A stretch of DNA of 64,000 bases from Rudanella paleaurantiibacter. Its GTDB lineage: Bacteria > Bacteroidota > Bacteroidia > Cytophagales > Spirosomataceae. The notes below the pieces were generated by a model. The model did not search any database, was not told where the DNA came from, and was given only the letters and a program-made list of their open reading frames with translations. The stretch is from positions 186,001-250,000 of the forward strand of contig NZ_WELI01000003.1 in NCBI RefSeq assembly GCF_009184635.1. Direction: 5' to 3'. Below, one piece after another: positions 48,718 through 64,000 of this stretch; the stretch's first letter is position 1; each line of letters begins with the position of its first letter. A program made the position numbers and the translations under genes.

Positions 48718-48735
48718 TGTACCGGGAGCCGGACT
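48718..48735 (-). other. Putative attL: 3'-end fragment of a tRNA gene
   Basis: The complement of 48718-48735, AGTCCGGCTCCCGGTACA, resembles the T-arm 3' strand plus acceptor 3' strand of a bacterial tRNA. Upstream of it (higher coordinates), the expected TTCGA T-loop is lost (GTGTTAGTCC instead of GTTCGAGTCC). A terminator follows directly. An integrase gene starts 197 bases away. This is the pattern of a tRNA 3' end left at one junction of an integrated element. The tRNA identity is not assigned. Confidence 0.6.
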
Positions 48736-48867
48736 AACACCCTGTTAATCTCTCCATTTTGACCATAGATTCAAATAAGGCAATAAATAGCCATAGTTAA
48801 TCCTATTAGCACTTTTTCGTCTCTCGCCTTGTTTGGGCAAGCTAAGTAGGAATAAAATAAATTAACC

Positions 48868-48916
48868 TATTCCGTACACAAAACCGTACACAAGGTTATA
48901 TTTGGTGTACGGAATA
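48868..48916. promoter_or_regulatory. Inverted repeat flanking the integrase promoter
   Basis: TATTCCGTACAC (48868-48879) and GTGTACGGAATA (48905-48916) are perfectly complementary, with a third CCGTACAC at 48884-48891. The -7 element TATATTTG (48897-48904) lies between the arms. This could be an operator or a set of integrase/excisionase arm sites. Confidence 0.6.
48897..48904 (+). promoter_or_regulatory. Integrase -7 element TATATTTG
   Basis: An exact TAnnTTTG match, 27 bases before the integrase ATG. Confidence 0.6.
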
Positions 48917-48931
48917 TTTGCTAAACGACCT

Positions 48932-50242
48932 ATGGCCCGCACCTCAAACAGCCCTGTTACTTACCTTCTTCGAGATCCCAAGGCCAGGAAACCTACGCCT
49001 ATCATTTGCGCTGTCCGCTTCAACAACCAACGCATAAATGTTGGCACTGGGTTTAAGGTTTTGCCCTCTCATTGGGACATAAGAAAAAGCCGAGTAAAGA
49101 ATGTTGTCGACGCTATCGACAAAGAGCAAATTAACCGATACCTTGAGAACACAGAAGATGCTATATCAAGCATAATTACAGAACTAAAAGCGAACCTTTC
49201 TGCACTGACGAAGGAGAACGTTAGGGCGCGTATCAGCGCTTACCTTAACCCTATCGTTGAAACAGTACAACCTCAGTCAACGGAGCCAGCACTATTTACT
49301 TTCATCGCTGATTTTATTAACCGTGCCCCCAAGCGTATCAATCCAGACACAGGTAAGAATGTAGAATATCGGACTATTCAGCGTTACAAAACTGCTTTGA
49401 ACGGCCTTCAAGAGTTTGCTAAATCGTACCGGCGCAAGGTGGACTTTGACACGATTGATCTTGATTTCTACGAAGACTTCACTACTTGGCTGACCTTTAC
49501 CAAAGGTTACACCGTTAACAACGTCGGCAAGTACATTCAGATGTTGAAAACGTTCCTGAACGAAGCATCTGCGAAGGGGATAAATGTAAAGCAAGACTAC
49601 CGAAGCAGAGGCTTTAAAGTAGTTAATGAGAATGCTGACGCCGTTTTTTTAAGTGAAACCGAAATTGAGCAACTGCTTGCCCTCGACCTTTCCAAGCAAG
49701 ATCGTTTAGAACGAGTCAGAGACCTCTTCGTTGTAGGCTGTTACACAGGCTTACGGTTTTCTGATCTAACCAACTTACGGCCAGAGTACATCAAAGATGG
49801 GCTTATCCGTATCGAGCAGCAAAAGACAGCCGACAAAGTTGTCATTCCTTGCCATGAGGTTGTTACGCAGATGCTGGAAAAATATAATGGCATCTTGCCC
49901 CGTAGCATCTCCAACCAGAAGATGAATGACTATCTGAAAGAAGTGTGTCAACTGTCCGGCATTAATACCATCGAAAGCAAGGCCCAAACAAAAGGAGGCA
50001 AACGCGTAATTAAGTCAGTCGAAAAATGGCAACTAGTTAGTACGCACACTGCCCGACGTTCGTTTGCTACAAATATGTATCTATTGGGCATTCCGGCTCT
50101 GACCATTATGCAGATTACCGGACACCGCACCGAGAAGGCCTTCATGAAGTATATAAAACTTGACCGGGAACAACACGCTAAAGTAATGGCTCTGCATTGG
50201 CAGAATCAGCGCAAAGCCGTTGAATCATTGAAAGCCATCTAA
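48932..50242 (+). CDS. Tyrosine site-specific integrase
   Basis: A 436-residue protein from ATG 48932; an upstream TTG at 48902 is part of the promoter. An N-terminal arm-binding domain is followed by a phage-integrase SAM-like core-binding domain (about 120-230). The catalytic domain has R in GCYTGLRFSDLTNL, K in QQKTADKVVIP, HxxR in HTARRSFATNMYL, then TGHRTEKAFMKYIKL with the final Tyr. This layout is typical of Bacteroidota phage and ICE integrases. It would integrate the element at the adjacent tRNA-like att site. Confidence 0.93.
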   Translation: MARTSNSPVTYLLRDPKARKPTPIICAVRFNNQRINVGTGFKVLPSHWDIRKSRVKNVVDAIDKEQINRYLENTEDAISSIITELKANLSALTKENVRARISAYLNPIVETVQPQSTEPALFTFIADFINRAPKRINPDTGKNVEYRTIQRYKTALNGLQEFAKSYRRKVDFDTIDLDFYEDFTTWLTFTKGYTVNNVGKYIQMLKTFLNEASAKGINVKQDYRSRGFKVVNENADAVFLSETEIEQLLALDLSKQDRLERVRDLFVVGCYTGLRFSDLTNLRPEYIKDGLIRIEQQKTADKVVIPCHEVVTQMLEKYNGILPRSISNQKMNDYLKEVCQLSGINTIESKAQTKGGKRVIKSVEKWQLVSTHTARRSFATNMYLLGIPALTIMQITGHRTEKAFMKYIKLDREQHAKVMALHWQNQRKAVESLKAI

Positions 50243-50257
50243 ACCCATACCTCACTC

Positions 50258-51091
50258 ATGTCTCTGTTGAAAACCAAAACTTTTGAGAACATTAAGAGCC
50301 TTTTTGCTGAAGGGGTTCGGTATACTTCTACGGATTTTCAGCAATTTGTAGAATTCCAAAAAGAGTGGATAGAGGTTTCTACCGGAGAATATGAATATAA
50401 TGACAATGCTCCCTTCAACGCCTTTCAAGAACAAACCCTTAATCACCGATTAAAGAAAAAACAACACATTCAGGAAAGGCTTGAGGAAATTTTCAAAATT
50501 ACGAATGAAACGTACAAAGCCGTGATGGAAAGTCAAGAGCCCCAAACGGCACTTTCTTACCTTCAAGAGTTATTGGCATACTTTGAAAGCGAAGCAGGTA
50601 GGCCCATCATCTCAGGAGGTTTTATACAACGAACAGATGGCACAATTAGCTTGAGAAATGTTGCCCGTGATATTAGGTTTGACCGACTTGTAGAAAAGAT
50701 AATTTTACCCACCATCCGTAAGGGCATTTCTCAATTAGAAAAATTAGTTGCAAGCGGCTGCTACACTTCGGTTGGTACAGAAAGCAAAGAATTTGTACAA
50801 GCCCAAACAGAAGACACTAAGCTCACTCACGCACAAATAGCAATTCTATATCACCTAGAGGGTCGAACAATCAATAAAAATAATGCTGATGATATAGCCC
50901 GCAGGTATGGCCAAACTAGTGGGCAAAAATTACAAGAATATTACGATGATCTTTCCTCTGAACTAACAAGAACGGCGAAAGGTAAGAAGACAGTAGAGAA
51001 TTACCGAAAGATAGAGTCTCTTATTTCCGAGATGTCTAAACTCAAGTATAACAGGGAGTTACAACAAGCCTTAATCAATAATAAAAAATAG
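50258..51091 (+). CDS. Hypothetical protein of Bacteroidota mobile elements
   Basis: A 277-residue protein, not assigned to a function. It is rich in Lys, Glu and Gln, mostly helical, with no signal peptide. Near the C-terminus, LTHAQIAILYHLEGRTINKN followed by ADDIARRYGQTSGQKLQEYY matches a recurrent pattern in proteins carried by Bacteroidota integrative elements, and looks like a helix-turn-helix-like C-terminal domain. It starts 15 bases after the integrase stop and is AT-rich relative to the chromosome. Confidence 0.6.
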   Translation: MSLLKTKTFENIKSLFAEGVRYTSTDFQQFVEFQKEWIEVSTGEYEYNDNAPFNAFQEQTLNHRLKKKQHIQERLEEIFKITNETYKAVMESQEPQTALSYLQELLAYFESEAGRPIISGGFIQRTDGTISLRNVARDIRFDRLVEKIILPTIRKGISQLEKLVASGCYTSVGTESKEFVQAQTEDTKLTHAQIAILYHLEGRTINKNNADDIARRYGQTSGQKLQEYYDDLSSELTRTAKGKKTVENYRKIESLISEMSKLKYNRELQQALINNKK

Positions 51092-51164
51092 TCAACTGGT
51101 TGCAACCAGTTACACTACTTGCCATGCCCGAACATTGCCAGCACGAACCAAATGCAAGAAGGCA

Positions 51165-51455
51165 ATGGCAAATCCGTTTGAATTGATTGATCGCCGTTTA
51201 GGTGCTATTGAACAAGTATTACAAGAGTTACGCCGAGCAACGCCCGCACATAAAGTACAGGCACAGACAGATTCCGACGAACTTCTTACACCCGAAGAGA
51301 CCGCCCAACTTTTGAAGGTTAGTAAAGTTACGGTCTGGCAGTGGAGTAAGCCCAAGCCGGGCATTCTCAAAAAACACACAATCGGCAACCAAGTACGTTA
51401 CTTGCGATCAGAAGTCATTGCTGCAGCCACTAAGAAAGGAGGGCAAGCGGCATGA
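51165..51455 (+). CDS. Excisionase-like helix-turn-helix (MerR-type) protein
   Basis: A 96-residue protein from ATG 51165; TTG 51135 is a weaker start. An N-terminal coiled-coil (FELIDRRLGAIEQVLQELRR) precedes LLTPEETAQLLKVSKVTVWQ and VRYLRSEVIAA, the pattern of the HTH_17 excisionase family. It likely binds DNA near the att or origin and assists excision or regulation. It overlaps the next gene by four bases (ATGA). Confidence 0.82.
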   Translation: MANPFELIDRRLGAIEQVLQELRRATPAHKVQAQTDSDELLTPEETAQLLKVSKVTVWQWSKPKPGILKKHTIGNQVRYLRSEVIAAATKKGGQAA

Positions 51456-51688
51456 ACAAAATCCCCCTCCGCAACGGCAACGGCCTACAACTGTCTGCAA
51501 TCGAAACGGTCGAACTGATGCAACTACTTTACCGAGTTGCCAACGATCAAACCACCAACTCAGACCGTGACTTTGCCCGCTCTGTACTGGAACGCTCTGC
51601 TTCACTTTATCCTGAGTACGCCAACGTCAAACCACTGATCCGGCCCGCTCTATCTCCCATTCGGCACACAAAGAAAAGGGGCAAGTAG
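51452..51688 (+). CDS. Small hypothetical protein
   Basis: A 78-residue protein, not recognised. It is hydrophilic with a central helical region (IETVELMQLLYRVANDQTTN) and a basic tail (RHTKKRGK). Its start overlaps the excisionase-like gene stop (ATGA), so it is coupled to it. It precedes the helicase gene by 33 bases. Confidence 0.55.
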   Translation: MNKIPLRNGNGLQLSAIETVELMQLLYRVANDQTTNSDRDFARSVLERSASLYPEYANVKPLIRPALSPIRHTKKRGK

Positions 51689-51721
51689 CCCCCTCCGCTA
51701 CTCACCCCAAACTCTTTTGTT

Positions 51722-53200
51722 ATGACTGACAACGTAAGCAATTTACGTTCTTCTTCCCAGAAGATCAAACAGGCCGTTGCAGGCGATGCCAAACACCTGA
51801 AAGCAACTGCCTTTGTCTGCCTATCGCACGCACAAATGATCAAAAACCTACTCGACCAGATCGGGAAGATTGATTTCAGAGAGCGTGCTGGTTTTGCCCC
51901 CGATGATGAGGAAGCAAAGCTTAAGAAAGCCCACTATCTGGTTATTGCCGTAGAGGAAGTTCTAAGCCTGGCTGAACGCAACAAGTGGGGGCTTTGCCGC
52001 CGTGATGGGTTCTTTTATTCATTCAATGGAGCGTACTGGAAGCCCTTAGACAAAGACGACCTAAAGAACTTTCTCAAGCAAGCGGCCGAACGAATGGGGG
52101 TAGATCGGTTTCAGGCCCGGCACTTCGAGTATGCCGAACAACTCTTCAAACAGTTCAACGAAACGGCCTACTTGCCTTCACCCGAAGCCGACCGCTTTAC
52201 GGTGATGGTTAACCTCAGCAACGGCACGTTTGCCATTGGTACCGACAAACAGGAATTACGCACCCCTAGTGCTGCTGACTTTCTGACCCACCAATTACCG
52301 TTTGGGTATGATCCCAAAGCCACAGCACCAAAGTTTCAGGCGTACCTTAACCGAGTGCTACCCGACATAGATTGTCAGCACATATTGGCTGAATACCTGG
52401 GCTATGTGTTCATCAATCCGGCCAAGCTTAAGTTAGAGAAAACGCTACTCCTGTATGGCACCGGTGCAAACGGCAAGAGCGTCTTTTTTGAAATAGTAAC
52501 CGCCTTGTTGGGGAATGACAACGTCAGCCACTACTCGTTGCAATCCCTCACCAATGAGCCTGCATATTGTCGGGCGCACCTGGCTACCAAACTGGTAAAC
52601 TATGCCAGCGAGATAAATGGCAAGCTGGAAGCGGACACGTTCAAACAGCTGGTTTCCGGCGAACCAGTAGAGGCCCGGTTACCGTACGGTCAACCGTTTA
52701 TCCTGACCAATTACGCCAAACTCATTTTCAACTGTAATGAATTACCGGCCGATGTGGAGCATACCCCGGCGTACTTCAGGCGCTTTCTGATTGTGCCGTT
52801 CAAACAGACGATTCCCGAACAGGATCAGGATAAGCAGTTAGCCCGAAAGATCATTGATACTGAACTGTCAGGCGTATTCAATTGGGTTTTAACTGGCTTG
52901 CGTCGACTATTGGAGCAGGGCCGTTTTACCGACTCCGAAGCCGTTCGGGAGCAGTTGGAGAGCTACAAAAAGCAGTCTGACACCGTGCGTCTTTTCTTGG
53001 ATGACAACAGCTATCAATCCTCTGACAGCTTTACACCCCTCAAAGACCTGTATCGAGACTACAGAGCCTATTGCATTGAAGATGGGTATAAGGCCGTCAA
53101 TAACCGAAACTTTCAGAAGCGACTAAATGCCAACGGTGTTACCACCGAACGGAAAACTATAGGCTATGTGGCCTATGTACGAAGGCCCGATTTGCCCTAA
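51722..53200 (+). CDS. D5/P4-type replicative helicase (SF3, primase-associated)
   Basis: A 492-residue protein. A D5_N-like domain lies at about 80-225 (FFYSFNGAYWKPLDKDDLKN; MVNLSNGTFAIG). The SF3 helicase has Walker A LYGTGANGKSVFF (GTGANGKS at 246-253) and a Walker B-like region near KLIFNCNELPADVEHTPAYF. YFRRFLIVPF follows. A C-terminal DUF3854-like/winged region includes FTPLKDLYRDYRAYCI. No zinc-finger or primase catalytic motif is seen at the N-terminus, so priming is probably by the next gene product. It would load and unwind at the element's origin. Confidence 0.88.
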   Translation: MTDNVSNLRSSSQKIKQAVAGDAKHLKATAFVCLSHAQMIKNLLDQIGKIDFRERAGFAPDDEEAKLKKAHYLVIAVEEVLSLAERNKWGLCRRDGFFYSFNGAYWKPLDKDDLKNFLKQAAERMGVDRFQARHFEYAEQLFKQFNETAYLPSPEADRFTVMVNLSNGTFAIGTDKQELRTPSAADFLTHQLPFGYDPKATAPKFQAYLNRVLPDIDCQHILAEYLGYVFINPAKLKLEKTLLLYGTGANGKSVFFEIVTALLGNDNVSHYSLQSLTNEPAYCRAHLATKLVNYASEINGKLEADTFKQLVSGEPVEARLPYGQPFILTNYAKLIFNCNELPADVEHTPAYFRRFLIVPFKQTIPEQDQDKQLARKIIDTELSGVFNWVLTGLRRLLEQGRFTDSEAVREQLESYKKQSDTVRLFLDDNSYQSSDSFTPLKDLYRDYRAYCIEDGYKAVNNRNFQKRLNANGVTTERKTIGYVAYVRRPDLP

Positions 53201-53219
53201 AAATAAAAGATGTTTTCCC

Positions 53220-53298
53220 GCCTACATATCCTACATAGCCTACATGAACGCCTATAGTGATTCGTGCTGCCTATGTAGGAAATGTAGGATATGTAGGC
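53220..53298. other. Iteron-like hairpin, candidate replication origin
   Basis: Three 9-base units CCTACATAT, CCTACATAG, CCTACATGA (53221-53247) face three units CTATGTAGG, AAATGTAGG, ATATGTAGG (53271-53297) in inverse. GCCTACATATCCTACAT (53220-53236) is perfectly complementary to 53282-53298. The hairpin lies between the helicase and primase genes. Confidence 0.6.
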
Positions 53299-53316
53299 CC
53301 AAACAAACCTTTTTTT

Positions 53317-54690
53317 ATGACTACATGCCAACCCCGATACCAGCTACCCAAGAAGGCAATAAAAATCGACTGCCCGCAGTGTAGCCCCCGACACCGTAAG
53401 ACCCTCAGCCAATATGTAGATCGGACAACAGGTGACGTATTACCCTTACCGTTCGGCCGATGCGACCGGGAAAGTAATTGCGGCTACTTTCTTAGTCCTT
53501 ATCACAAAGGGTCATCCGGTTTAAGCTTTGTTGATGAGCAAAAAGGCCCGCCTATCCCGAAAGAATGGTTTAAAATGGCTGCCAAATGGAAGAAGGCAGG
53601 TACTACCCCCGAAGGTGTTGTTACTACCCTTATCCAAATGGAGGGAGCAACACTGGAACAGGCCGAGCGAGTAAAAAACTATATCTTTTTACGGCCTGCA
53701 TATCCTACACAACCTACACAGCCCGCCCCGGTTCATGTGCTGCCGGATGAGGTCTTACACCAGTCACTAGGCCGTTATGAACACAATGAGTTTGCCCGCT
53801 TCTTAGTATGTCACTTCGGGACTGAGATTGCTACCACCCTATTGCAGCGATTCAAAGTTGGCACCTCGACGTACTTTAAAGGGGCTTGTGTATTCTGGTT
53901 GGTTGATGAGCAAAACCGCGTTAGAGGAGGACAAATAGCACTCTATGACCAAACGGGCCATAAGGTTAAGTACACCAACAAGGAAGGAGAGCGAAGAGCC
54001 TGCATTACATCCGTTCGGCACGCCCTGGCAAGAAAGTATAAAGGTGAGACCCCGCCCGAATGGTTGGCAAAAATCCCGGAAGATGCTGAGACGTGGCCTG
54101 TTGTTTTTGGCTTACCTCAACTGCACAGAGCGCCAATTGATGCACCAATAGCCATTGTAGAGGGCCCGAAAACAGCTATTATCTGTAGCTACTACCTACC
54201 GGAATTTATCTGGTTGGCCGTTGGCGGAAAGTCGTACCTGAAACCTGAACGGTTGGAAGCCTTACGAGGTCGCAAGATTCGGCTTTTCCCTGACTTGAAT
54301 GCTTACCACGATACAAAGAATGCTCAAGGGCGAACCGTGAAAGGTTGGCTTTCTATTGCAGACCAGCTACAAGCCGCAGGTTTTGACGTGAGCGTATCTG
54401 ATATACTGGAACAGTTAGCGACCGACGAAGAAAGGGAAAAGGGGTTAGATATGGCGGACTACCTGCTATCCGAATCCAACACAATTACCGCCCTTTCTGA
54501 TTGGAGCCCCGGGCAACTCGTAACGTTTGACCAAAGCCGTATTGAGCGGCTTACCGTCGACTTCACCAGCGACTACCCGCCCGAATGGGACGCCCCCGCC
54601 CCAGCCGATGCCGCCCCGATAATCCGGCCCATTGCCTACGGTTCACCTGAGTTCCACCAATGGCACCACAATACGCACACGCAGCCATGA
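53317..54690 (+). CDS. Primase-like protein with zinc ribbon and Toprim-like domain (DUF6371 type)
   Basis: A 457-residue protein from ATG 53317; a GTG at 53257 lies inside the iteron hairpin. An N-terminal zinc ribbon is visible in IDCPQCSPRHRKTL and RCDRESNCGYF (CxxC...CxxxxxC). The middle has IAIVEGPKTAIICSYYLPEF, a Toprim-type Glu strand, and IRLFPDLNAYHD with a second acidic motif. The C-terminus is Pro-rich. It probably primes replication together with the D5-type helicase. Confidence 0.75.
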   Translation: MTTCQPRYQLPKKAIKIDCPQCSPRHRKTLSQYVDRTTGDVLPLPFGRCDRESNCGYFLSPYHKGSSGLSFVDEQKGPPIPKEWFKMAAKWKKAGTTPEGVVTTLIQMEGATLEQAERVKNYIFLRPAYPTQPTQPAPVHVLPDEVLHQSLGRYEHNEFARFLVCHFGTEIATTLLQRFKVGTSTYFKGACVFWLVDEQNRVRGGQIALYDQTGHKVKYTNKEGERRACITSVRHALARKYKGETPPEWLAKIPEDAETWPVVFGLPQLHRAPIDAPIAIVEGPKTAIICSYYLPEFIWLAVGGKSYLKPERLEALRGRKIRLFPDLNAYHDTKNAQGRTVKGWLSIADQLQAAGFDVSVSDILEQLATDEEREKGLDMADYLLSESNTITALSDWSPGQLVTFDQSRIERLTVDFTSDYPPEWDAPAPADAAPIIRPIAYGSPEFHQWHHNTHTQP

Positions 54691-54902
54691 AACCACCCGA
54701 GCAACAACTGACTGGCCTGGCTGCCGAAGTCGTGCGAGTGCTGGACAAACGAGCGAAAACAGACGGTTGGACCTGGGTAGGCTTCGAGAACGGGGAAGGG
54801 TCAGAAGTTGGCCGAGAGATAGAGCGACTGATACGAAAGGCCCGACGAATCCTAAACCAGCAACAGAGCAAAGCACACAAAGAAACCAATCAAAACCAAT
54901 GA
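54687..54902 (+). CDS. Small hypothetical protein
   Basis: A 71-residue protein from ATG 54687, which overlaps the primase stop by four bases (ATGA). It is charged and helical (VGREIERLIRKARRILNQQQ) with no recognised domain, and its stop overlaps the next start (ATGA, 54899-54902). It is part of a tightly packed operon. Confidence 0.55.
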   Translation: MKPPEQQLTGLAAEVVRVLDKRAKTDGWTWVGFENGEGSEVGREIERLIRKARRILNQQQSKAHKETNQNQ

Positions 54903-55402
54903 AAAAGCAGACCAAAGCCGTAGTGGCTACCACAACCGAAGGCCATGCCGGCCGACCCTCCAAGTTTATGCCTGAGTTTACAGAGCGGGCTCACAAAATG
55001 GCCTTGCTGGGCCTGACAGATGAAGCGATGGCCGATGTTTTAGGCGTTGCCCGTTCAACATTCAGCCTTTGGAAGAAGAACAACCCTGAATTTTCGGACG
55101 CAGTACAGGGGGGTAAAATCTTAGCGGATGCCAAAGTAGCAGCGGCATTGTACATACGAGCCGTAGGCTACGAATACCCCTCCGAGAAGTTGCTGACCGT
55201 CTCCGTAGGGGATGGGGTTTCAGAGGTTCAACGGCACCCGATTACCGTGCACGTGCTGCCTGACCCCGGTGCCGCCCTCAATTGGCTCAAGAATCGACAG
55301 CCAAAGCTTTGGCGGGATAAGCAGGACGTGCAGCTATCGGGCGAAATCAGCGTTACCCTCAACTTAGATGGCGACCATTCTAACAATTCTAAAACAGAAT
55401 AG
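54899..55402 (+). CDS. Small-terminase-like helix-turn-helix protein
   Basis: A 167-residue protein from ATG 54899. After a basic N-terminus, GRPSKFMPEFTERAHKMALL and DEAMADVLGVARSTFSLWKK form a helix-turn-helix (about 20-70) typical of phage terminase small subunits. NPEFSDAVQGGKILADAKVA and NWLKNRQPKLWRDKQDVQLS give the usual C-terminal region. The DNA-recognition part of packaging is suggested, but no large terminase is seen downstream. Confidence 0.7.
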   Translation: MKKQTKAVVATTTEGHAGRPSKFMPEFTERAHKMALLGLTDEAMADVLGVARSTFSLWKKNNPEFSDAVQGGKILADAKVAAALYIRAVGYEYPSEKLLTVSVGDGVSEVQRHPITVHVLPDPGAALNWLKNRQPKLWRDKQDVQLSGEISVTLNLDGDHSNNSKTE

Positions 55403-55405
55403 ACC

Positions 55406-55693
55406 ATGTTTCAAAAAGGCAGAACAAAAACCGGAGGGCGCAAAGCCGGAATAGGAAACAAGATTGACGCGAAACTGAAAGAGCGTATTGCTGAACTGGT
55501 AGAAGGGCAGTTTGACAACATCGTGGCAGACCTTGCCGAACTGGAACCCAAAGACCGCGTTGCGGCCTACCAACGATTCTTAGAATACGTAATACCGAAG
55601 CAACGGGAGCAAAAGACGGATGTGCATGTAGAAGCCAGAGATAAGCCCCATTGGCTTACTGCAACGTTGGATTACCCAGCCTTTACCGAGTAA
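55406..55693 (+). CDS. Small phage-type protein next to the terminase-like gene
   Basis: A 95-residue protein. The N-terminus FQKGRTKTGGRKAGIGNKID is basic and glycine-rich, and FDNIVADLAELEPKDRVAAY and FLEYVIPKQ follow. It resembles short Bacteroidota phage proteins found beside terminase genes (DUF5681-like opening). It starts 3 bases after the terminase-like stop. Confidence 0.55.
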   Translation: MFQKGRTKTGGRKAGIGNKIDAKLKERIAELVEGQFDNIVADLAELEPKDRVAAYQRFLEYVIPKQREQKTDVHVEARDKPHWLTATLDYPAFTE

Positions 55694-55716
55694 ACCACAA
55701 CCAAACCAATACTGCA

Positions 55717-58700
55717 ATGGAAGAGAACGATGATAGCTTGATATTTGAAGTGAAGCTGGAAGAGAACAATCTGGAAGAGCGCGTTAAGGTGCTCAAGCAA
55801 CAGATAGAAGCCCTCAAACAGCAAAAGAAAAACCTTGATACCCTCAACAAATCGGGCGTTGTGACGGGCAAAGCGTATGCTGACCAACTCGAAGAGATTG
55901 AGAAGCGCACCAAATCCGCCAAGACGGAACTGCAAGGCCATACCCGTACCCTTGACCTGCAACAGAAGGCCCAAAAATCAGCAGCAGGGTCTATTACTCA
56001 GCTACGGGCGAACCTTTCTTTACTGACCGCGCAGTATGCCGAACTGAGTGCTGAGGAGCGTGACGCAACTGACGCTGGGGCCGAGATGCAAAAGCAACTT
56101 ACTGAGCAGATTGCAAAGCTGAAAGCCCTCGAAAAAGCCTATGGTGACAGTCGACGCAACGTCGGCAACTATACCGATGGGATGCGCGAAGCCGCCCGCA
56201 GCCATTCGCCCTTTATCAGTACGCTCTTAGACGTGAAAGACACGCTCACGCAAACCGTTGAAGGGCTGAGAGCAAGCCGGGAAGGTTTGCGCGAACAGAT
56301 TGCAGGGTTGAAGGGTACGGCCGCAGGGTTTGAAGGGGCGAAGAAATCAAGCATTGCTTTCGGATTGTCATTGAACGCTCTGGGCATTGGCTTACTCATT
56401 ACCGCCCTGGCTGGATTGGTTTCATTCTTCACCAAGACCGAGAAAGGAGCCCTGATGTTGAAGCAGGTAATAAGCGGGCTATCTGCTGCCTTTGATGTTT
56501 TCGTTCGCGCCCTGGCACCCATTGGCGAATTGCTGACCGACTTGTTTACCGGGAACATTACCAGCATCAAAGACTTTACCACCCGCTTAGGTGGAGCCCG
56601 CAAAGAGTTAAGCGGAGTCGGATCAGCGATGTTGTCCGCTGCCAAAGCGGCCGCAATCTACGAGAAGCGTATAAAGGAACTGGAAAAGGCGCAGCGGGCG
56701 CAAATGGTAGCCAGTGCCGAAGCAAACCGAGAAGCTGAGTTTGCACTGAAACGGGCCGAAGATACCACGCTGGGCATAGCCACCCGACGCGAAGCCTTGC
56801 AGCGAGCGTTTAAGATTCAGAGCAACGCGGTAAAAGCCGACATTGACTTGCTCAGAGCCAAAGCCAACGTCGAACGGGAGGCCATTATAGGCACGTTGCG
56901 CGTTACAGAAGCCGAACGGGAACGGTTGCGTAAAAAGTCCAACGCTGACTTTAGCCGGGAAATTGAAACCTTAGGCGTTGCAGAGGATCAGCGGCAACGG
57001 TTCCGCGACGCTGCCGTGCAAGCTATCGAGAAAGAGACCGAACTACGGTTGAAGTCGATGGACCTGGTTAAAGAAGATAACGCCCTACGGCAGGAAGGGG
57101 CCGACAAGTCGAAAGAGCAAGCAGAGAACCAACTGGCAACGGCCGTGCAAATCGCACAGCTACGACTCGAACGGGCGCAGATGTTGGGCGAGGAGACGCT
57201 AAAGCTGGAAGAAGCCCTAATTCTCAAGCAAGGCCAGCAGGAAGCCTTTGGACTCAAGAAAAGCAGCGACCTCCGCAAAGCGATTGAAGCCAAAACGAAC
57301 GCGGAAATTCTGAAACTACGGTTAGACTATGCCGTGGATATGCAACAGCAGGAATTAGAATTGAAAGCGGCCGAGGTTGCAGCGTCGTTAACGTTGGCCC
57401 GTAGAGGCAGTAAAGAGGAGTTGGAACTGATTGTTCAATCCCTCCGCATACAAGGCCAGCAAAGGGAGGTAGAAGCCCGTAAGCAGTACCGGAAAGATGC
57501 CGAATACGAGCAGGCACGGGCCGCTATTGTCTTGCAGACGCAGCGTCAAATTGACGACGCACGGGCGGCATTCGCTCGGGGTGAGATCGAGCGCGTTGCT
57601 GAACTTGGGCAGCTTCGCATTCAGACCGAAATCGACCTGAACAAAACGTCTATCGACAACGACCGCATCTTAGCTGAACGTCGAATCGACCTCGAAGAAA
57701 AGACGCAACTTGAACTGCTTGAGATTGCGGAAATAAGCGAAGAAGAACGACTCGTACGCATGAACGCAATTCAGGCGAAAGCCTTGGCAGAACGTCGTGA
57801 GGTGTACAAGCAGCTACGCGAAGACGAACGTACGCAGACGCAGGCGCTGCTCGACATCCGCTTGGCGTCGGTCAAGAAAGGTACGGTTGAGGAATTGAAG
57901 CTAAAGAAGGAACAGCTTGCCTTGCAGATGAAGGCTGAACTTGACAACCTGAAACTCACCGAAGAGCAAAAAGAAGCGATCAAGGCAAAGTACCGTGAGC
58001 AGGAAGAGGAAGCGGTCGATGCCTTCAACGAAAGCGTTGCTGCTAACACGATTGAGTCAGCAGCCCGTGCGACACAGGTAGCTACAACTCTGATCGAAGC
58101 GTCGATAGCAAGGCGTACGGCCGTGCTCGACAAACAACAGAAAGCGGCTCTGCAATCGGCTGGTCTGAACGCTGACTTGCGGGCGAAGGTCGAAGAAACG
58201 TTTCAGAAGCGACGCGAGAAACTCGAAAAGGATGCGGCCAAGAAGCGGCAACGCATAGCCAGTATTGAGAACGTCATCAATACGGCGAAGGCCGTGACGG
58301 TCGCGATCACGGGCGCACCCCCTCCGTTCAGTGCGATACTCGCAGCCATTGCCGGGGCGCAGGGCTTGGCGCAGCAGGTATTGATCGACTCGCAGCAGTT
58401 CGCACGGGGCGGGGTGTATCTGTCTGACGGGCGGGGCGGCTATGTACGCGGCCCCGGCACTGCCACCTCGGACAGCATCAACAGCCGACTCAGTAACGGG
58501 GAGAGTGTGAACAATGCCGAAAGCACAAAGATGTTTTACCCGCTCTACTCCCTACTGAATCAACTCGGAGGAGGTAAGGCCTACCCAAATACCCCGGCCT
58601 ACAATCCAAGTACCTTTCTTGCACCGGCACCGGCACCGAGTGCAAACCCTGAGCAGTTGGCCGCCCTGGTTGAGCAGGGAGTAGCCAGAGCCCTGGAACG

Positions 58701-58785
58701 GATGCCGAACCCCGTGGTAACAGTCGATGACATAAACAAGGGACAGAAGAAGGTGACGGCTATTCGAGACAGTAACGACGTGTAA
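55717..58785 (+). CDS. Tail tape-measure-like protein
   Basis: A 1022-residue protein from ATG 55717; a further in-frame start at 55651 overlaps the preceding gene. Long coiled-coils run through most of it (LEERVKVLKQQIEALKQQKK, repeated ELRxKxEELELI text), broken by a hydrophobic segment near residues 220-250 (GLSLNALGIGLLITALAGLV). The C-terminal FARGGVYLSDGRGGYVRGPG, then TSDSINSRLSNGES, is the signature of tape-measure proteins of phages with long tails. It would set tail length. It follows the small packaging genes directly, with no head genes. Confidence 0.8.
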   Translation: MEENDDSLIFEVKLEENNLEERVKVLKQQIEALKQQKKNLDTLNKSGVVTGKAYADQLEEIEKRTKSAKTELQGHTRTLDLQQKAQKSAAGSITQLRANLSLLTAQYAELSAEERDATDAGAEMQKQLTEQIAKLKALEKAYGDSRRNVGNYTDGMREAARSHSPFISTLLDVKDTLTQTVEGLRASREGLREQIAGLKGTAAGFEGAKKSSIAFGLSLNALGIGLLITALAGLVSFFTKTEKGALMLKQVISGLSAAFDVFVRALAPIGELLTDLFTGNITSIKDFTTRLGGARKELSGVGSAMLSAAKAAAIYEKRIKELEKAQRAQMVASAEANREAEFALKRAEDTTLGIATRREALQRAFKIQSNAVKADIDLLRAKANVEREAIIGTLRVTEAERERLRKKSNADFSREIETLGVAEDQRQRFRDAAVQAIEKETELRLKSMDLVKEDNALRQEGADKSKEQAENQLATAVQIAQLRLERAQMLGEETLKLEEALILKQGQQEAFGLKKSSDLRKAIEAKTNAEILKLRLDYAVDMQQQELELKAAEVAASLTLARRGSKEELELIVQSLRIQGQQREVEARKQYRKDAEYEQARAAIVLQTQRQIDDARAAFARGEIERVAELGQLRIQTEIDLNKTSIDNDRILAERRIDLEEKTQLELLEIAEISEEERLVRMNAIQAKALAERREVYKQLREDERTQTQALLDIRLASVKKGTVEELKLKKEQLALQMKAELDNLKLTEEQKEAIKAKYREQEEEAVDAFNESVAANTIESAARATQVATTLIEASIARRTAVLDKQQKAALQSAGLNADLRAKVEETFQKRREKLEKDAAKKRQRIASIENVINTAKAVTVAITGAPPPFSAILAAIAGAQGLAQQVLIDSQQFARGGVYLSDGRGGYVRGPGTATSDSINSRLSNGESVNNAESTKMFYPLYSLLNQLGGGKAYPNTPAYNPSTFLAPAPAPSANPEQLAALVEQGVARALERMPNPVVTVDDINKGQKKVTAIRDSNDV

Positions 58786-58805
58786 ACCGTAGCCCCAAAG
58801 AAACT

Positions 58806-60833
58806 ATGATACAGGACGGACTTTATTTAAATGACCAATGGGTAAGCCCATTTGAAAACTTTGCTCTGACGTTTCAGGGTAACGACCTGACAAAACCGGA
58901 GTCTCAGCAGACGTCTTATTCGAGTGCAATCAAACTACCCGATACGGTCAATGTTCGTGCCGTTACGCAGTCGGCCGAGCAGCCCAACAGCGGATCAGAG
59001 ATGCCCTACCAACTGACCCCGGCGCACGTGGTCAGTAATGGGGAGATTATGCTACGGGGTAACTTTCGGTTTACCGACTTTCAGCAGGGATGGAACGGGA
59101 CATTATCCGAAGCCAAGCAACAGCTATTGACTCGGTTAAAGCGCCCGCTTCGTTCGCTACACCTCAGCGACTACGATTTTCCGTGGAGCCTGGACTATAT
59201 CAATAGCCGTGCTACCGCAAAGCAGGGTGTTTGTTTTCCGTTCGTTGACTACGGCACCCTGAGTAGCACCGAGCAACCGAGCGACACACTGAACCCGGCC
59301 GTTTACGTTCATTCGTTGGTAGCCAGTATGCTGCACGAAGAAGGCTATAAGCTAACAGGTAGCCTACCGGCTGATGAGTTGTACAAGCGGCTTGCGCTGC
59401 CGTTTGTTGAGGATAAGCCGACCAATGTAGACCCCGATTTTGTGGAAGCGCGTAGGGCGCGCGTTACTTGCCCTACCGGAATTGTTGCCCCTCCCCGTTC
59501 TGCCGGGAAGAGTATCACTCTGCCTTTTTCCGTGGTGGATCAACCGTTGGAAGGATTTGGACAGGGTCGGCTAAACCTGTACGATCCGGTAAGTTTTTCG
59601 TATGTAGTTGATACAGCGATGCGAGTAAAAGTAACGTGCTTTCAGCAGTTCCAAATAAAGATTGACTTTGGAGCCGTTGAAGCAAAGCTGCAACTTGAAA
59701 AGAATGGGAAGGTGGTCGCAGAAGAGTATTGGAGTGAAGCGGGGCCATTTAACAACCTGTTACTACGAGTGCAGACCATAGAGTTAAAGACCTCTGTAAG
59801 CTGTCAAGCGGGCGACCGTTTGCGGCTACGTTTGGTACTGCAACGTCGCACCCGGGTTGCCCAATGGGAGGGTATTATTTTCTTTGGTGCCATGCAAAGT
59901 ATTGCGGGCTACGAGCCCGACAATGCCCTGACCTTTGGCGACCTTTGGCCCGTTGGTCGAAACTTGCCTGACATGGATTGTTTGGACTTGTTGAAGGCCG
60001 TTGCGTTGCTGACTTGCTCAACTATTACCGTTGATGACTCCCGAAAGCAGGTGCAGTTTACTCGGATCAGCGAGGTAATCAGTAACACGGCCGACGCTTT
60101 GGACTGGACTGACCGGATATGTGTAACACCAAACGAGCCAGCCGAAATAACGCCCGCCCTGGAGCCCTACGGGGCCACAAACTATTTACGCTGGAAAGAA
60201 TGCGAGGGGGTAGATAAAGGCTACGGTGACGGTATGATTGAAGCCAAGAGCCCGGCCGTGGACTCAGTGGATTTATTCACCCTACCCTTTGCCGCAAGCA
60301 TGGAAAGCCCCGTTGAAATATCCGGCTACGGGAAGCCGTTACGAATCGAAACCCGTACCGTCACCGGATCGGGTGAAAACCGAGCGGTAAACCTCAAGAG
60401 CACACAGCCCCGGCTTATCATTGTGGAGCCTGCACACAACTATACTATCAATACGTCGATCCTGACCGATACCGGCACCATTGAGAAAAAGCCCGTTACA
60501 TTAATGGCTTGCTGGTTCGATAGAAGGCCGCAGCTTGCAGTAACATTGCTGAATAACCTGAGCCTGAACTTTGCCGACACAGCAACGAGCAACGGCTTAA
60601 TCAGTCGGTATTTTGTTGGCTTGCGCAGGGTGTTACGTCGGCCCCGAGAAGTCAGTATATCGGCAAAGCTGACACCGGCCGACGTGGCACAGCTTGACTT
60701 TTCCCGCCCCGTTTTGCTGAGGTCAACAAAGATTGATGGGTTAGATTTTACGCAGTGCTACTACTACCTGAATAAGGTTGAGCGATACCGGGCCGATGGT
60801 TTATGTAGATTGAGCCTGGTTAGTTTTTTCTAA
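58806..60833 (+). CDS. Phage tail-associated protein, unassigned
   Basis: A 675-residue protein, not assigned to a family. It is predicted to be largely beta, starting GLYLNDQWVSPFENFALTFQ. It follows the tape-measure gene by 20 bases, where distal tail or tail-tip proteins usually stand in long-tailed phages. No lysin or adhesin domain is recognised. A role as distal tail/hub is inferred from position only. Confidence 0.55.
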   Translation: MIQDGLYLNDQWVSPFENFALTFQGNDLTKPESQQTSYSSAIKLPDTVNVRAVTQSAEQPNSGSEMPYQLTPAHVVSNGEIMLRGNFRFTDFQQGWNGTLSEAKQQLLTRLKRPLRSLHLSDYDFPWSLDYINSRATAKQGVCFPFVDYGTLSSTEQPSDTLNPAVYVHSLVASMLHEEGYKLTGSLPADELYKRLALPFVEDKPTNVDPDFVEARRARVTCPTGIVAPPRSAGKSITLPFSVVDQPLEGFGQGRLNLYDPVSFSYVVDTAMRVKVTCFQQFQIKIDFGAVEAKLQLEKNGKVVAEEYWSEAGPFNNLLLRVQTIELKTSVSCQAGDRLRLRLVLQRRTRVAQWEGIIFFGAMQSIAGYEPDNALTFGDLWPVGRNLPDMDCLDLLKAVALLTCSTITVDDSRKQVQFTRISEVISNTADALDWTDRICVTPNEPAEITPALEPYGATNYLRWKECEGVDKGYGDGMIEAKSPAVDSVDLFTLPFAASMESPVEISGYGKPLRIETRTVTGSGENRAVNLKSTQPRLIIVEPAHNYTINTSILTDTGTIEKKPVTLMACWFDRRPQLAVTLLNNLSLNFADTATSNGLISRYFVGLRRVLRRPREVSISAKLTPADVAQLDFSRPVLLRSTKIDGLDFTQCYYYLNKVERYRADGLCRLSLVSFF

Positions 60834-60841
60834 TACGCACC

Positions 60842-60869
60842 GCCCCGGCCAATGAGTCGGGGCTTTTTT
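60842..60869 (+). terminator. Intrinsic terminator of the tail operon
   Basis: GCCCCG (60842-60847) pairs with CGGGGC (60858-60863), followed by six T (60864-60869). Confidence 0.85.
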
Positions 60870-61164
60870 ATTCCTCCTCCACCGGGAGCGAGTTGATAAA
60901 TTGGTTGATGAGGTACGTTACACTTTTGCCCGTCTTTTCGGCATAGTTCAGTAATCGCTCATGCCGATCCGCCCTGATAAAAAAGGCCAGTTGACGCAGA
61001 GGTTTAGAATCGAGTTTCAGCTTTTCCCGTCGAACTTGAGCCCGATCAGGCGCAGGTACCACGTCGTAATACTTGCTCACCGTTCCGAATACAGTTTTAG
61101 CAGCGTCTTTGATGCCGACACCGCTTTGCACCAATGCCCGGACCTGTTCAAGTTTATCATTCAT
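60868..61164 (-). CDS. Ribbon-helix-helix-like regulator (minus strand)
   Basis: A 98-residue protein from ATG 61164; TTG 61221 is a weaker start and would cover the operator-like site. The C-terminal half KPLRQLAFFIRADRHERLLN followed by GKSVTYLINQFINSLP is the pattern of a ribbon-helix-helix domain. The N-terminal half is basic. It is divergent from another RHH-like gene with a palindrome between, suggesting that it and its neighbour control this region. Confidence 0.65.
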   Translation of the reverse strand: MNDKLEQVRALVQSGVGIKDAAKTVFGTVSKYYDVVPAPDRAQVRREKLKLDSKPLRQLAFFIRADRHERLLNYAEKTGKSVTYLINQFINSLPVEEE

Positions 61165-61222
61165 GGAGTTTTTGCGCCTTTTGTGATGCCCAAATATACG
61201 CGGGCTTTTGTTGTTCTGCAAT

Positions 61223-61233
61223 ACTGTATGTAC
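61223..61233. promoter_or_regulatory. Operator-like site ACTGTATGTAC (copy 1)
   Basis: It lies just before a near-consensus -7 element (GACCTTTG at 61234-61241) that would drive the RHH gene at 61267. The same 11 bases recur at 61470-61480. Confidence 0.6.
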
Positions 61234-61266
61234 GACCTTTGTAGGGCCAACTAAAACAAAACAGAT

Positions 61267-61467
61267 ATGCAGCCCAAAGCGAAACGCACCCCGAAAACCT
61301 ACCGCCTGACCGATGAAACCCTGAGCCGGATAAACGAACTGACCGACCTGTTAGGCGTTGATGCTACGGCCATAATCGAGCGGTCAGTAGAACACTACCA
61401 CCCGACCGGGAAAGCGGCAGGAATTGAGCAGATGAAAGCGAAACTAAAAAAACACGCTGATTTGTAA
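61267..61467 (+). CDS. Small ribbon-helix-helix-like DNA-binding protein
   Basis: A 66-residue protein. KTYRLTDETLSRINELTDLL followed by ATAIIERSVEHYH is the strand-helix-helix pattern of the RHH superfamily (Arc/CopG-like). It is divergent from the RHH-like gene at 60868-61164. Copies of the palindrome ACTGTATGTAC flank it on both sides, consistent with autoregulation. Confidence 0.72.
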   Translation: MQPKAKRTPKTYRLTDETLSRINELTDLLGVDATAIIERSVEHYHPTGKAAGIEQMKAKLKKHADL

Positions 61468-61468
61468 G

Positions 61469-61484
61469 TACTGTATGTACAGTA
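61469..61484. promoter_or_regulatory. Operator-like palindrome TACTGTATGTACAGTA (copy 2)
   Basis: 7-base arms TACTGTA/TACAGTA around TG. It shares ACTGTATGTAC with 61223-61233 and lies 14 bases upstream of a consensus -7 element. Confidence 0.65.
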
Positions 61485-61498
61485 TTGCTTTTTGTTCT

Positions 61499-61506
61499 TA
61501 TCTTTG
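61499..61506 (+). promoter_or_regulatory. Bacteroidota-type -7 element TATCTTTG
   Basis: An exact TAnnTTTG match, 24 bases before ATG 61531. It would drive the 108-residue gene and the M41-like gene. Confidence 0.6.
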
Positions 61507-61530
61507 TTCCAACAAAAAGCACTTACAACC

Positions 61531-61857
61531 ATGCAGACCACAAAAGCCCCTCAGTTGCAGCCCACGTTAGGCCGTTCGTTCGACATTGAAATCAGTATGA
61601 GCCTGGAAGAGGGCCGCACCTCCACCGATGCCGAGTTACTACTGGACATATTGGATGCGCACCGGGAAGTTCAACTAAAGGAGTTGCAAAACGAGTTAGA
61701 CCGCCTGATTAAGAACCCCGCTGAATATGCCAGACAGCGCGAATATTTTAAGGCAGAGTTAAGCAAGCTGGAACGATTGAGTTTTTATACCACCGTTCTA
61801 CGCACTGGCATAGATCAGGCTTACCGCCAACTTGCCGAAGAGGTAAGAACAAAGTAA
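61531..61857 (+). CDS. Small hypothetical protein with coiled-coil
   Basis: A 108-residue protein from ATG 61531. The first 25 residues (QTTKAPQLQPTLGRSFDIEI) are extended. A coiled-coil follows (LKELQNELDRLIKNPAEYAR and ELSKLERLSFYTTVLR). No domain is recognised. It lies 22 bases upstream of the M41-like gene on the same strand, under a shared promoter. Confidence 0.55.
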   Translation: MQTTKAPQLQPTLGRSFDIEISMSLEEGRTSTDAELLLDILDAHREVQLKELQNELDRLIKNPAEYARQREYFKAELSKLERLSFYTTVLRTGIDQAYRQLAEEVRTK

Positions 61858-61879
61858 GTGCCTAACTCATACTCAGACC

Positions 61880-62458
61880 ATGCAATCACAAGAGTACAGA
61901 ACAGCCATACACGAAGCAGCACACTTTGTAACGCTTATCATGAGGGGTATAGGCTCAACCCCCCATATAATCAGTATTATTCAGTCAGAGAAGATACGCG
62001 GATACGTCAGAGACCCAGCGCTTATAAGGATTAAGCATTGTCCGGAAATGTTTTCTGCTGCGCACAGAATGCGATGGGTCGCCCAATATTTAGCGGGCCA
62101 TGCAGCCGAGCAGGTACTGACCGGAGAGGTCTACGATTTTTGGGGCCATGACATAGACGAACCCCACGACTTTGGAATAGCCTGGAAGATTATTGAGAGT
62201 ATTGCCGATGGATCAGTGGACGGGGTTTTTGTTGGCAGTGCTTTGGAAGATGCCTACCAAGAAACCATAGAGTTTTTAAAAACGCCCGTGGTTTGGCAAG
62301 CAATCGAATTGGTAGCGAATGAGGTTTTCAAGCGCAAAGAGATAACCAGAGACAACGGGCTCTTTGAGTTAGCGGAAAAAGTTTTTGCTTTGCCTGTCTT
62401 TGCCGACGTTCAACTGATAACACCACATTTGACAATTCCTGCCCGCAATCCACAGTAG
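61880..62458 (+). CDS. Stand-alone M41-like zinc peptidase domain protein
   Basis: A 192-residue protein. The zinc motif HEAAH (H11-E12, H15) sits in YRTAIHEAAHFVTLIMRG. YLAGHAAEQVLTGEVYDFWG and HDIDEPHDFGIAWKIIESIA align with the FtsH peptidase region, where a later Asp (D97 here) is the third metal ligand. There is no AAA+ domain and no membrane segment. It may be a soluble protease acting on element or host regulators; this is inference. It is the last gene before a terminator. Confidence 0.7.
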   Translation: MQSQEYRTAIHEAAHFVTLIMRGIGSTPHIISIIQSEKIRGYVRDPALIRIKHCPEMFSAAHRMRWVAQYLAGHAAEQVLTGEVYDFWGHDIDEPHDFGIAWKIIESIADGSVDGVFVGSALEDAYQETIEFLKTPVVWQAIELVANEVFKRKEITRDNGLFELAEKVFALPVFADVQLITPHLTIPARNPQ

Positions 62459-62481
62459 TAACTTAGTACCTGACCCATACA

Positions 62482-62507
62482 AGCCCCGGCATACGTCGGG
62501 GCTTTTT
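62482..62507 (+). terminator. Intrinsic terminator of the M41-like gene
   Basis: AGCCCCG (62482-62488) pairs with CGGGGCT (62497-62503), followed by TTTTT. Confidence 0.85.
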
Positions 62508-62581
62508 GATAATATCATCCCAACAATTGATTTTTACTCTGTGGTATTGTGTACTGTATTTTCGCCAAGATGCCCCTTCGC

Positions 62582-63790
62582 TTACTTTAATAAACTCACG
62601 TAAAGATTAGTAACGATAGGAGTGCGGAGTTGCTTGGCAAATAGCTTACACTCTATGTTGATTATCTCGCCAGCCAAAGAATTAGGAAAATGTATCCTTA
62701 ATGGTGTCTCAAAGGCTCGAACAGGTATACCATGCCGTAGAACTCCGATGTGCTCATTAACTAGTATGTAGTCATTTAATTCAGAAACCTCAGGATAAGA
62801 CATTATATTAACTTTAATCTCAGGCACCCTCATCCCAAATGGCCCGGTCACTGCTTTTTCGGGATCATCATATACTTTATCGGCCACAAGTAACCCATTT
62901 ATTTTGGGAATAAATAATTGGATAGAGGCATCGTCAATATAACTATCACCTTCGTTGTGAATGACTACATTAATCTTTACAGCATGCTTCTCGTAGATTG
63001 TAAAAAGATCATCTTCTTCGTATGTATCTTCTACGTCACGAAGGTTTTCATACAGTTCAACTGTATCCCGATCTTCATAACTTCTTGATACACTTATTCG
63101 TGGAAAGTTTTGAAGTGCATTTAAGAGAGTGAAATTATCCGTACCCTTCTCATCTTCTAATCGACGAGCTAACTCTTCTCGCTTCCTTAAAATATCTAGA
63201 ATGCTTTCTTTTGCTTTTTGAGAAGGTAGTGTGTATTCCCCCGCAGTCTGAACAGCAATTTTTTCAGATTTATCGTCCGAATCAAATTTTATATGAATCG
63301 GCCCCACCGAGGTACGGCTATCAAAAATTTTCTCAAAGTCTTGACGCATCATTCTTCGCTGGGTCGACCCCTTACGAATCCAAGAATCCCCTACATTAAG
63401 TCTAGCTTTACTCTCCGTTGAATCGAAATTCTTAAGCATCATATAAGGCTGGTTAGTGCAGTTATAAATCCGGATAACGCCTAACGTAAGCCCTCTAAAG
63501 TGAACAGGAGTATAATCTATATCAAGTTCGGGTTCAATGTTGCTTTGTATAAGTTGTTGATAAGTTGCTGAATCAACTAATGGTTCAGCAATGCCAGTGA
63601 TAGTTCTTGTACCATCAGAATTGAGTTTTACACCTATTATAATATGCCTGTCTCCCGAAATAGATGCATTAGCCATTGCCATCACATCTTTAAGGAGTGA
63701 AGCGTACTGAGGCTTTGTATATTGACTGGATTTAAAGTCAAGCCGTGTGTTTTCATTTTCATATTCAATTAAGTCGTTTAAGTTATCCAT
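62582..63790 (-). CDS. AlbA_2/Schlafen-type DNA- or ATP-binding domain protein
   Basis: A 402-residue protein from ATG 63790 (MDNLNDLIEYEN); a TTG at 63862 is a weaker start. LDFKSSQYTKPQYASLLKDV, MAMANASISGDRHIIIGVK and GVIRIYNCTNQPYMML fit the AlbA_2 (Schlafen AAA_4-like) fold, about residues 15-150. The rest is unrecognised and includes a beta-rich C-terminal region (INGLLVADKVYDDPEKAV). It is visibly more AT-rich than the phage-like genes before it, as cargo genes often are. It may be a defence or regulatory protein. Confidence 0.65.
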   Translation of the reverse strand: MDNLNDLIEYENENTRLDFKSSQYTKPQYASLLKDVMAMANASISGDRHIIIGVKLNSDGTRTITGIAEPLVDSATYQQLIQSNIEPELDIDYTPVHFRGLTLGVIRIYNCTNQPYMMLKNFDSTESKARLNVGDSWIRKGSTQRRMMRQDFEKIFDSRTSVGPIHIKFDSDDKSEKIAVQTAGEYTLPSQKAKESILDILRKREELARRLEDEKGTDNFTLLNALQNFPRISVSRSYEDRDTVELYENLRDVEDTYEEDDLFTIYEKHAVKINVVIHNEGDSYIDDASIQLFIPKINGLLVADKVYDDPEKAVTGPFGMRVPEIKVNIMSYPEVSELNDYILVNEHIGVLRHGIPVRAFETPLRIHFPNSLAGEIINIECKLFAKQLRTPIVTNLYVSLLK

Positions 63791-63985
63791 AAGCCAATAT
63801 TTTTCATGCTTTAAACGCCAGTATGAGCGTCCGAATTTATTGAAAACTAAGTCACCCCTCAACTCAGACGTTTTATATTTTGTAACAAATGGCTCTGGTA
63901 TCTATCAGCGTACTATTAAAGATAAAGAATTAATATACGAAAAGAGCCTGCTTTAGATGCCTAGAACTAAGTGTTAATCTTACAA

Positions 63986-63996
63986 TCCGTACACAC
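63986..63996. repeat. CCGTACACA-type copy near the window's end
   Basis: ATCCGTACACA at the extreme right end repeats the CCGTACAC units at 48868-48916. It may be another arm-type binding site at the far side of the element. Confidence 0.4.
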
Positions 63997-64000
63997 ATCC

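Follow-up and report, generated by a model that had tools for sequence, protein, structure and literature searches.

Phage-inducible chromosomal islands (PICIs) are satellites of about 15 kb that encode an integrase, an excisionase-like regulator, a primase/helicase and a small terminase and borrow their head genes. To our knowledge, PICIs carry no tail genes or other structural genes. The element described here does carry tail genes. It lies in Rudanella paleaurantiibacter, at the right end of a stretch of 64,000 nucleotides (contig NZ_WELI01000003.1, positions 186,001 to 250,000; hereafter the window), and occupies window positions 48718-64080. It is very probably a phage satellite, integrated and intact, and next to its small terminase gene it encodes a tail tape measure protein (TMP) and a TMP-linked tail protein of 675 residues, termed Tail675. 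Two kinds of satellite that contribute virion parts of their own have been described. Capsid-forming PICIs are reported to bring heads and borrow tails (PMC10690885). The PICI-like elements (PLEs) of Vibrio cholerae build chimeric tails with their own TMP, chaperone and hub, and their TMP is required for transduction (PMC12987554, Nature 2026). Among the matches listed in the PMC literature, preprints aside, the PLE study was the only precedent recognized for a satellite-encoded TMP.

The Rudanella element resembles PICIs, as these are generally understood, in its integrase, excisionase-like regulator, primase/helicase, small terminase subunit (TerS), length of about 15 kb and borrowed heads. 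Unlike PICIs, it has TMP and Tail675, and no divergent control of the stl/alpA type was recognized. A P4-family helicase/primase domain and integration at a tRNA gene are shared with P4-like satellites, again as generally understood, whereas TerS and the tail genes are points of difference, as is the lack of recognized Sid/Psu-like genes: the general profile scans named no Sid, Psu or Delta family and left several small open reading frames (ORFs) without any family. Like capsid-forming PICIs, the element carries part of the virion set; however, it is their mirror image, bringing tail parts and borrowing heads, and among capsid, portal, protease and terminases only TerS was recognized. With the PLEs it shares its own TMP and, in Tail675, a candidate hub, heads and most of the tail being left to the helper. 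It differs from them in belonging to another phylum, in a presumed helper that is siphophage-like rather than contractile, in carrying TerS (and, in some relatives, the large terminase TerL), in the conservation of Tail675 where TMP is not conserved, and in having no recognizable chaperone. The element is apparently unrelated to PLEs, and the likeness drawn here is one of described gene functions. Cellulophaga phage phi46:1 and Spirosomataceae prophages with a portal of family phrog_11226 offer another comparison. There, too, Tail675 (gp20 in phi46:1) adjoins TMP (gp21), but these are phages with head genes, and phi46:1 also has a large terminase.

The element is complete and bounded, with a net insertion of 15,345 bp. 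An 18-bp attachment core at 48718..48735, to which no strand is assigned, is repeated exactly at 64063-64080, beyond the window, so that the right end of the element lies 80 bases past the window end. Extending the sequence in this way yielded the right attachment site that the original prediction had asked for. The right core overlaps the 3ʹ end of a tRNA-Leu(CAA) gene (64064-64148, minus strand). Just inside the two ends of the element, two nearly identical 20-bp repeats of the CCGTACACnnnnCCGTACAC type lie on the plus strand; the left copy, a putative integrase site, is at 48872..48891, and its partner occupies 63987..64000 in the window and runs to 64006. A CCGTACACnnnnCCGTACAC-type motif occurs again at both ends of the related Spirosoma spitsbergense satellite, and these paired repeats look like integrase arm sites. 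In another genome of the same genus (G230), homologs of the two host neighbors (98% and 99% identical) stand only 563 bases apart around an empty site with a single 18-bp core; the alignment of each flank continues through this core (91% and 92% identity, small gaps). Because the 18-bp repeat coincides with the tRNA 3ʹ end, arm-type pairs lie inside both ends and an empty site exists in the same genus, these boundaries are more than a chance repeat. To the right, an ABC permease and further genes that look host-like by eye follow over the next 20 kb. Since host genes come after tRNA-Leu, no head genes lie to the right of the element, as the satellite interpretation had predicted.

The left part of the element encodes a tyrosine integrase (48902..50242; PF00589 2.5e-14, phrog_1 4.8e-31) that is 62% identical to the integrase of the S. 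spitsbergense satellite, followed by an excisionase-like HTH protein (51135..51455; HTH_17 1.4e-8, phrog_66 2.6e-8). The replication block consists of a D5-type helicase with the C-terminal part of a P4-family primase (51722..53200; DUF5906 6.2e-20, with D5_N and Pox_D5 also matched, and TIGR01613, NCBIfam "primase, P4 family", at 181.9 bits against a cut-off of 108.7) and a primase-like protein with DUF6371 and a zinc ribbon (53257..54690; 1.3e-43 and 6.8e-18). TerS follows at 54899..55402 (phrog_309 2.6e-49), its start lying inside the ORF designated 54632. All of these genes point in the same direction, on the plus strand, in a PICI-like arrangement. Also on the plus strand are a 95-aa protein (55406..55693; phrog_15261 3.9e-4, with a 41% homolog in a distant prophage) that by eye is possibly small-terminase-like, the 1022-aa TMP (55717..58785) and Tail675 (58806..60833). 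ORFs and profile matches confirmed the genes at the places first described for them, including the gap of only 23 bases between the 95-aa gene, which ends at 55693, and the TMP gene, which starts at 55717. In profile scans of the element genes, six small or accessory ones being compared with Pfam and not with PHROGs, no portal, capsid, protease, large terminase or tail tube family was recognized, which upholds the earlier observation that head and packaging-motor genes are missing. Such a junction could also be left in a decaying prophage by an internal deletion between 55693 and 55717 that removed the genes for large terminase, head and tail tube. Deletions of this kind happen, TMP and Tail675 are phage tail genes, and partial Tail675 copies exist in four other genomes (G522, G526, G528 and G497). 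However, the gene spacing is tight, the reading frames are open and both attachment ends are present, and no prophage was found that holds the missing block between the same neighbors.

The profile matches of TMP and Tail675 are weak, so both are identified by synteny and homology. TMP matches named TMP families at 3.2e-6 at best and phrog_37298, listed as of unknown function, at 6.9e-14, and the sole family match of Tail675 is phrog_33698 (8e-5), likewise listed as of unknown function. The TMPs of seven of the eight helper-type prophages described below align with the element TMP over 287 to 1068 columns at 30-44% identity, and the C-termini of the element TMP and of the phi46:1 TMP, gp21, also match. 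Tail675 is 38-41% identical over its whole length to copies in all eight. Aligned by hhalign, the Tail675 profile matches phi46:1 gp20 (99.4%, E 2.5e-21), whose gene immediately precedes that of gp21 and which is listed in its database record as a virion protein identified by mass spectrometry. It also matches gp59 of Bacteroides phage BS-TP3 (99.2%, E 8e-20), directly before gp60, which the element TMP matches in turn; two control comparisons were negative (0.3% and 0.1%). The predicted structure of Tail675 (pLDDT 81.8, pTM 0.76) resembles, over its length, models of proteins from uncultured tailed phages (best E 9e-48, TM 0.69) and contains, at about residues 210-375, an inserted TNF/C1q-like jelly roll (fold search Z 14-15). 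Compared with solved structures by sequence, the profile found nothing useful (best E 0.7), and in fold searches of the PDB the jelly-roll domain took up the hit lists, which therefore barely test the remainder of the protein. Position and predicted fold suggest that Tail675 is probably a tail hub or tip with a receptor-binding insert.

Relatives were sought in a sample of 222 Spirosomataceae genomes, which includes Spirosoma, Fibrisoma and Larkinella, the last also a member of this family. Tail675 homologs occur in 21 of them (a separate search gave 20 matches among 390 genomes drawn from the order), divided into 8 helper-type prophages, 7 head-less satellites including the Rudanella element, and 6 others. 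In the first group, Tail675 lies near portal, protease and capsid-like genes, "capsid-like" being assigned by position and similarity. Carriers of these prophages include S. profusum, S. luteum, S. arboris, L. knui and F. montanum. The portal family phrog_11226 has 14 matches at E<=1e-5 in the 222 genomes. Eight of these have E-values no higher than 7.5e-48, followed by one at 1.9e-8. The eight strong matches fall in exactly the eight genomes with Tail675 prophages, and none of the 14 falls in any of the seven satellite genomes. Over regions of 31-40 kb and at E<=1e-3, the prophages share with the element only TMP (7/8) and Tail675 (8/8); that no further element gene matches them counts against a prophage that merely lost its middle. 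Beyond the family, the phrog_11226 portal is present in 9 of the 11 additional Tail675 genomes (8 of these 9 on the same contig as Tail675), so most such copies look like ordinary prophages. A scan of viral contigs returned 0 relatives with the single Tail675 protein as query and 10 loci with an alignment.

All seven satellites hold Tail675 in a head-less element with an integrase and differing replication genes, which in the other six, apart from those that were profile-scanned, were named by eye or similarity. The one in Larkinella terrae (G484) has the same order as the Rudanella element, namely integrase, excisionase-like gene, replication genes, TerS, TMP and Tail675, with a 146-aa protein between the last two. 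The L. humicola satellite (G478) encodes TerS, a 95-aa protein and Tail675; that of Larkinella sp. C7 (G483) has TerS, TerL, a 95-aa protein and Tail675; and those of S. spitsbergense (G527), G379 and G029 have a small-terminase-like protein, TerL and Tail675. A phrog_309 TerS is present in five of these six. An own TerL is found in four of the seven, assigned to phrog_38 by profile in G029 and G379, while the G527 and G483 proteins are 87% and 66% identical to that of G379. Attachment repeats in tRNA genes bound the satellites of G379 (56 bp at tRNA-Thr, 22.8 kb) and G527 (16 bp at tRNA-Gln, 12.8 kb); when they were sought in the others, none was found in G484, G478 or G483, and G029 gave one uncertain 15-bp repeat. 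The layout thus recurs in other genomes, as the original prediction proposed to check, and six further head-less elements of similar layout in other hosts again weaken the case for a single internal deletion.

The tail genes differ in constancy among the seven. Tail675 is near full-length in all of them, the G483 copy with a frameshift in the assembly. TMP is full-length in two, represented by a 95-aa relative of its N-terminus in two (G478 and G483), and missing beside Tail675 in three. These 95-aa proteins stand just before Tail675 and resemble the first 39-95 residues of TMPs, although the E-values (2.7e-10 at best) are optimistic because blastp was run without low-complexity and composition filters. 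They are 65% identical to each other, with dN 0.254, dS 0.57 and a ratio of about 0.45, and are less constrained than Tail675. A TMP-like piece of this sort is possibly an assembly initiator.

A tree of Tail675 was built from 19 of the 21 rows, the partial G522 and G528 copies being left out; the G483 row is the longer of the two ORFs of the frameshifted gene and starts with some residues read in the wrong frame, and the copies of G518 and of a second locus in G511 were labeled neither satellite nor prophage. Monophyly of the satellite copies is rejected (AU p 1e-45); they are interleaved with prophage copies, with at least 4 changes between satellite and prophage forced by well-supported branches. 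For example, the Larkinella satellites group with an L. knui prophage and the G029 satellite with an S. profusum prophage. This pattern suggests repeated recruitment or exchange of Tail675 between phages and satellites. Because the two kinds of copy are interleaved, a simple deletion is unlikely. Of 8 Tail675 pairs, 6 were saturated; in the other two, dN/dS was 0.19 (satellites G478 and G483, the latter with the frameshifted gene) and 0.12 (the G029 satellite compared with the S. profusum prophage). The low value in the satellite pair likewise speaks against decay, and with the other head-less elements and the non-monophyletic Tail675 the proposal of an internally deleted prophage, raised as the alternative in the original prediction, has become very improbable. 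The tail genes could also be passengers acquired by recombination with helpers and have no current role. Their place is where the packaging genes end, only some satellites have TMP, and the tree shows exchange with phages. However, near full-length retention of Tail675 in 7/7, the low dN/dS in the sole measurable satellite pair and the four or more label changes make idle passengers unlikely.

By analogy with the PLEs, we think it probable that the satellite builds chimeric tails in which its own TMP and Tail675 are mounted on helper parts. The identity of the helper, the packaging, the incorporation into virions and the hub role of Tail675 are those that we infer in the following scheme. A siphophage-like phage with a phrog_11226-type portal would enter the cell or be induced, and the integrase and excisionase-like protein would cut the element out of tRNA-Leu. 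Replication would fall to the D5 helicase and the DUF6371 protein, and the TerS of the element would direct the large terminase and heads of the helper to satellite DNA. The element's TMP and Tail675 would then take the place of the helper copies, with tube, connector and fiber proteins coming from the helper. With its jelly roll, Tail675 would act as the tail tip hub, such that the satellite sets the assembly and adsorption of its own particles. Across the satellites, packaging would be redirected by a terminase of their own, as the small subunit alone or as both subunits, and tails would consist of helper parts and an own tip, two of the satellites adding their own ruler, TMP. Tail length itself was once suspected of being altered. 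This found no support: satellite TMPs of 1022 and 1035 aa fall within the 876-1101 aa of seven prophage TMP reading frames, and with lengths overlapping in this way there is no sign of tail shortening. TMP and Tail675 might instead be decoys that spoil the tails of a helper or competitor and form no part of satellite particles. The 95-aa pieces that resemble the N-terminus of TMP would suit a dominant-negative, and interference with tail assembly is a reported defense strategy (PMC11364771). However, Tail675 aligns with the prophage copies over its whole length and TMP with five of seven prophage TMPs over about 900-1070 columns, and the PLE satellite TMP is present in virions and required for transduction (PMC12987554). 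Decoys are accordingly a rather unlikely explanation.

Several observations weigh against chimeric tails or against parts of the scheme. Helper mobilization of these elements is presumed from their genes, and a resident helper, which the original prediction had hoped to find as a prophage with a similar TMP, did not turn up in the same genome, where there is neither a phrog_11226 portal at E<=1e-5 nor a second TMP. In the scans of the element genes, neither a tail assembly chaperone nor a gene for capsid size was recognized. The hub role of Tail675 comes from synteny and a predicted fold, and its C-terminal 303 residues fold poorly on their own (pLDDT 55). The element's own Tail675 forms a deep, solitary branch of the tree, and hence no recent donor can be seen. 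The label hardly clusters, with 4 changes against a mean of 5.3 for shuffled labels (90 of 500 shuffles as low); this implies repeated movement of tail genes between phages and satellites, in a direction that the change count does not reveal. In Larkinella sp. C7, Tail675 is frameshifted early, through decay or an error of the draft assembly. Replacement of TMP cannot be general, since only 2/7 satellites have it at full length. The contrast between variable TMP and constant Tail675 suggests the tip rather than the ruler as the core of the strategy; the satellites were collected by Tail675, however, and its constancy is partly a matter of ascertainment.

The remaining genes of the element are small or accessory. 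On the plus strand, a 277-aa protein of no confident family (50258..51091) is weakly similar to proteins in the same position in two other satellites, a 78-aa ORF (51452..51688) has no family at the cut-off, and an 80-aa ORF (54660..54902) is 44-48% identical to homologs near the same place in G527 and G379. Downstream of Tail675 lie a 98-aa protein with no family at the cut-off (60868..61164, minus strand) and, on the plus strand, an RHH-like small protein (61267..61467; RHH_1 0.006, below the cut-off), an uncharacterized 121-aa protein (61492..61857) and, as cargo, a 192-aa protein of no confident family (61880..62458) with a 23% homolog in a satellite-like element of G326. At the right end, a gene for an SLFN/AlbA_2-domain protein (62582..63862, minus strand; PF04326 1.5e-15, PADLOC candidate PDC-S50 2.8e-14) is possibly defense cargo.

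The remaining six Tail675 genomes (G497, G437, G518, G522, G526 and G528) hold partial, weak or unclassified copies. The partial copy of G528 is closest to those of the G379 and G527 satellites and that of G522 is closest to G528, and by sequence decayed satellites of this lineage may persist in these two chromosomes. A TMP-Tail675 pair with two further phage genes is common to two Spirosoma species, as the second Tail675 locus of G511 (contig C2) and in G518 (contig C13), in mostly different surroundings; no integrase, portal or terminase match was found in the 40 kb compared, and a regulator beside the pair is presumably Rha-like. The phrog_309 TerS reaches further than Tail675. It occurs in 31 of the 222 genomes, including satellite-like elements without Tail675 such as those on G326 contig C22 and G511 contig C23; 20 TerS regions were mapped by similarity only and were not sorted singly into satellite and prophage. 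The G326 element (C22, 489000-508999) shares 82% integrase identity with the G029 satellite and encodes a RepA-like protein, a DUF6371 primase 45% identical to that of the Rudanella element, and TerS; with no tail gene match, it is a tail-less cousin.

The element and its six relatives point to a second case of tail-part swapping by satellites, apparently independent of the PLEs and from a different phylum, and suggest that such swapping is a wider satellite strategy. They also form a natural experiment, in which satellites of presumably the same kind of helper carry TMP, a TMP-like piece or neither, with or without TerL. More tentatively, they may belong to a Bacteroidota satellite family whose hallmark is an own tail tip, lineages of which took Tail675 from their helpers more than once and placed it beside the terminase genes. 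If this is true, helper heads and tubes would carry a tip chosen by the satellite, and these satellites would choose their own hosts instead of following the host range of the helper.

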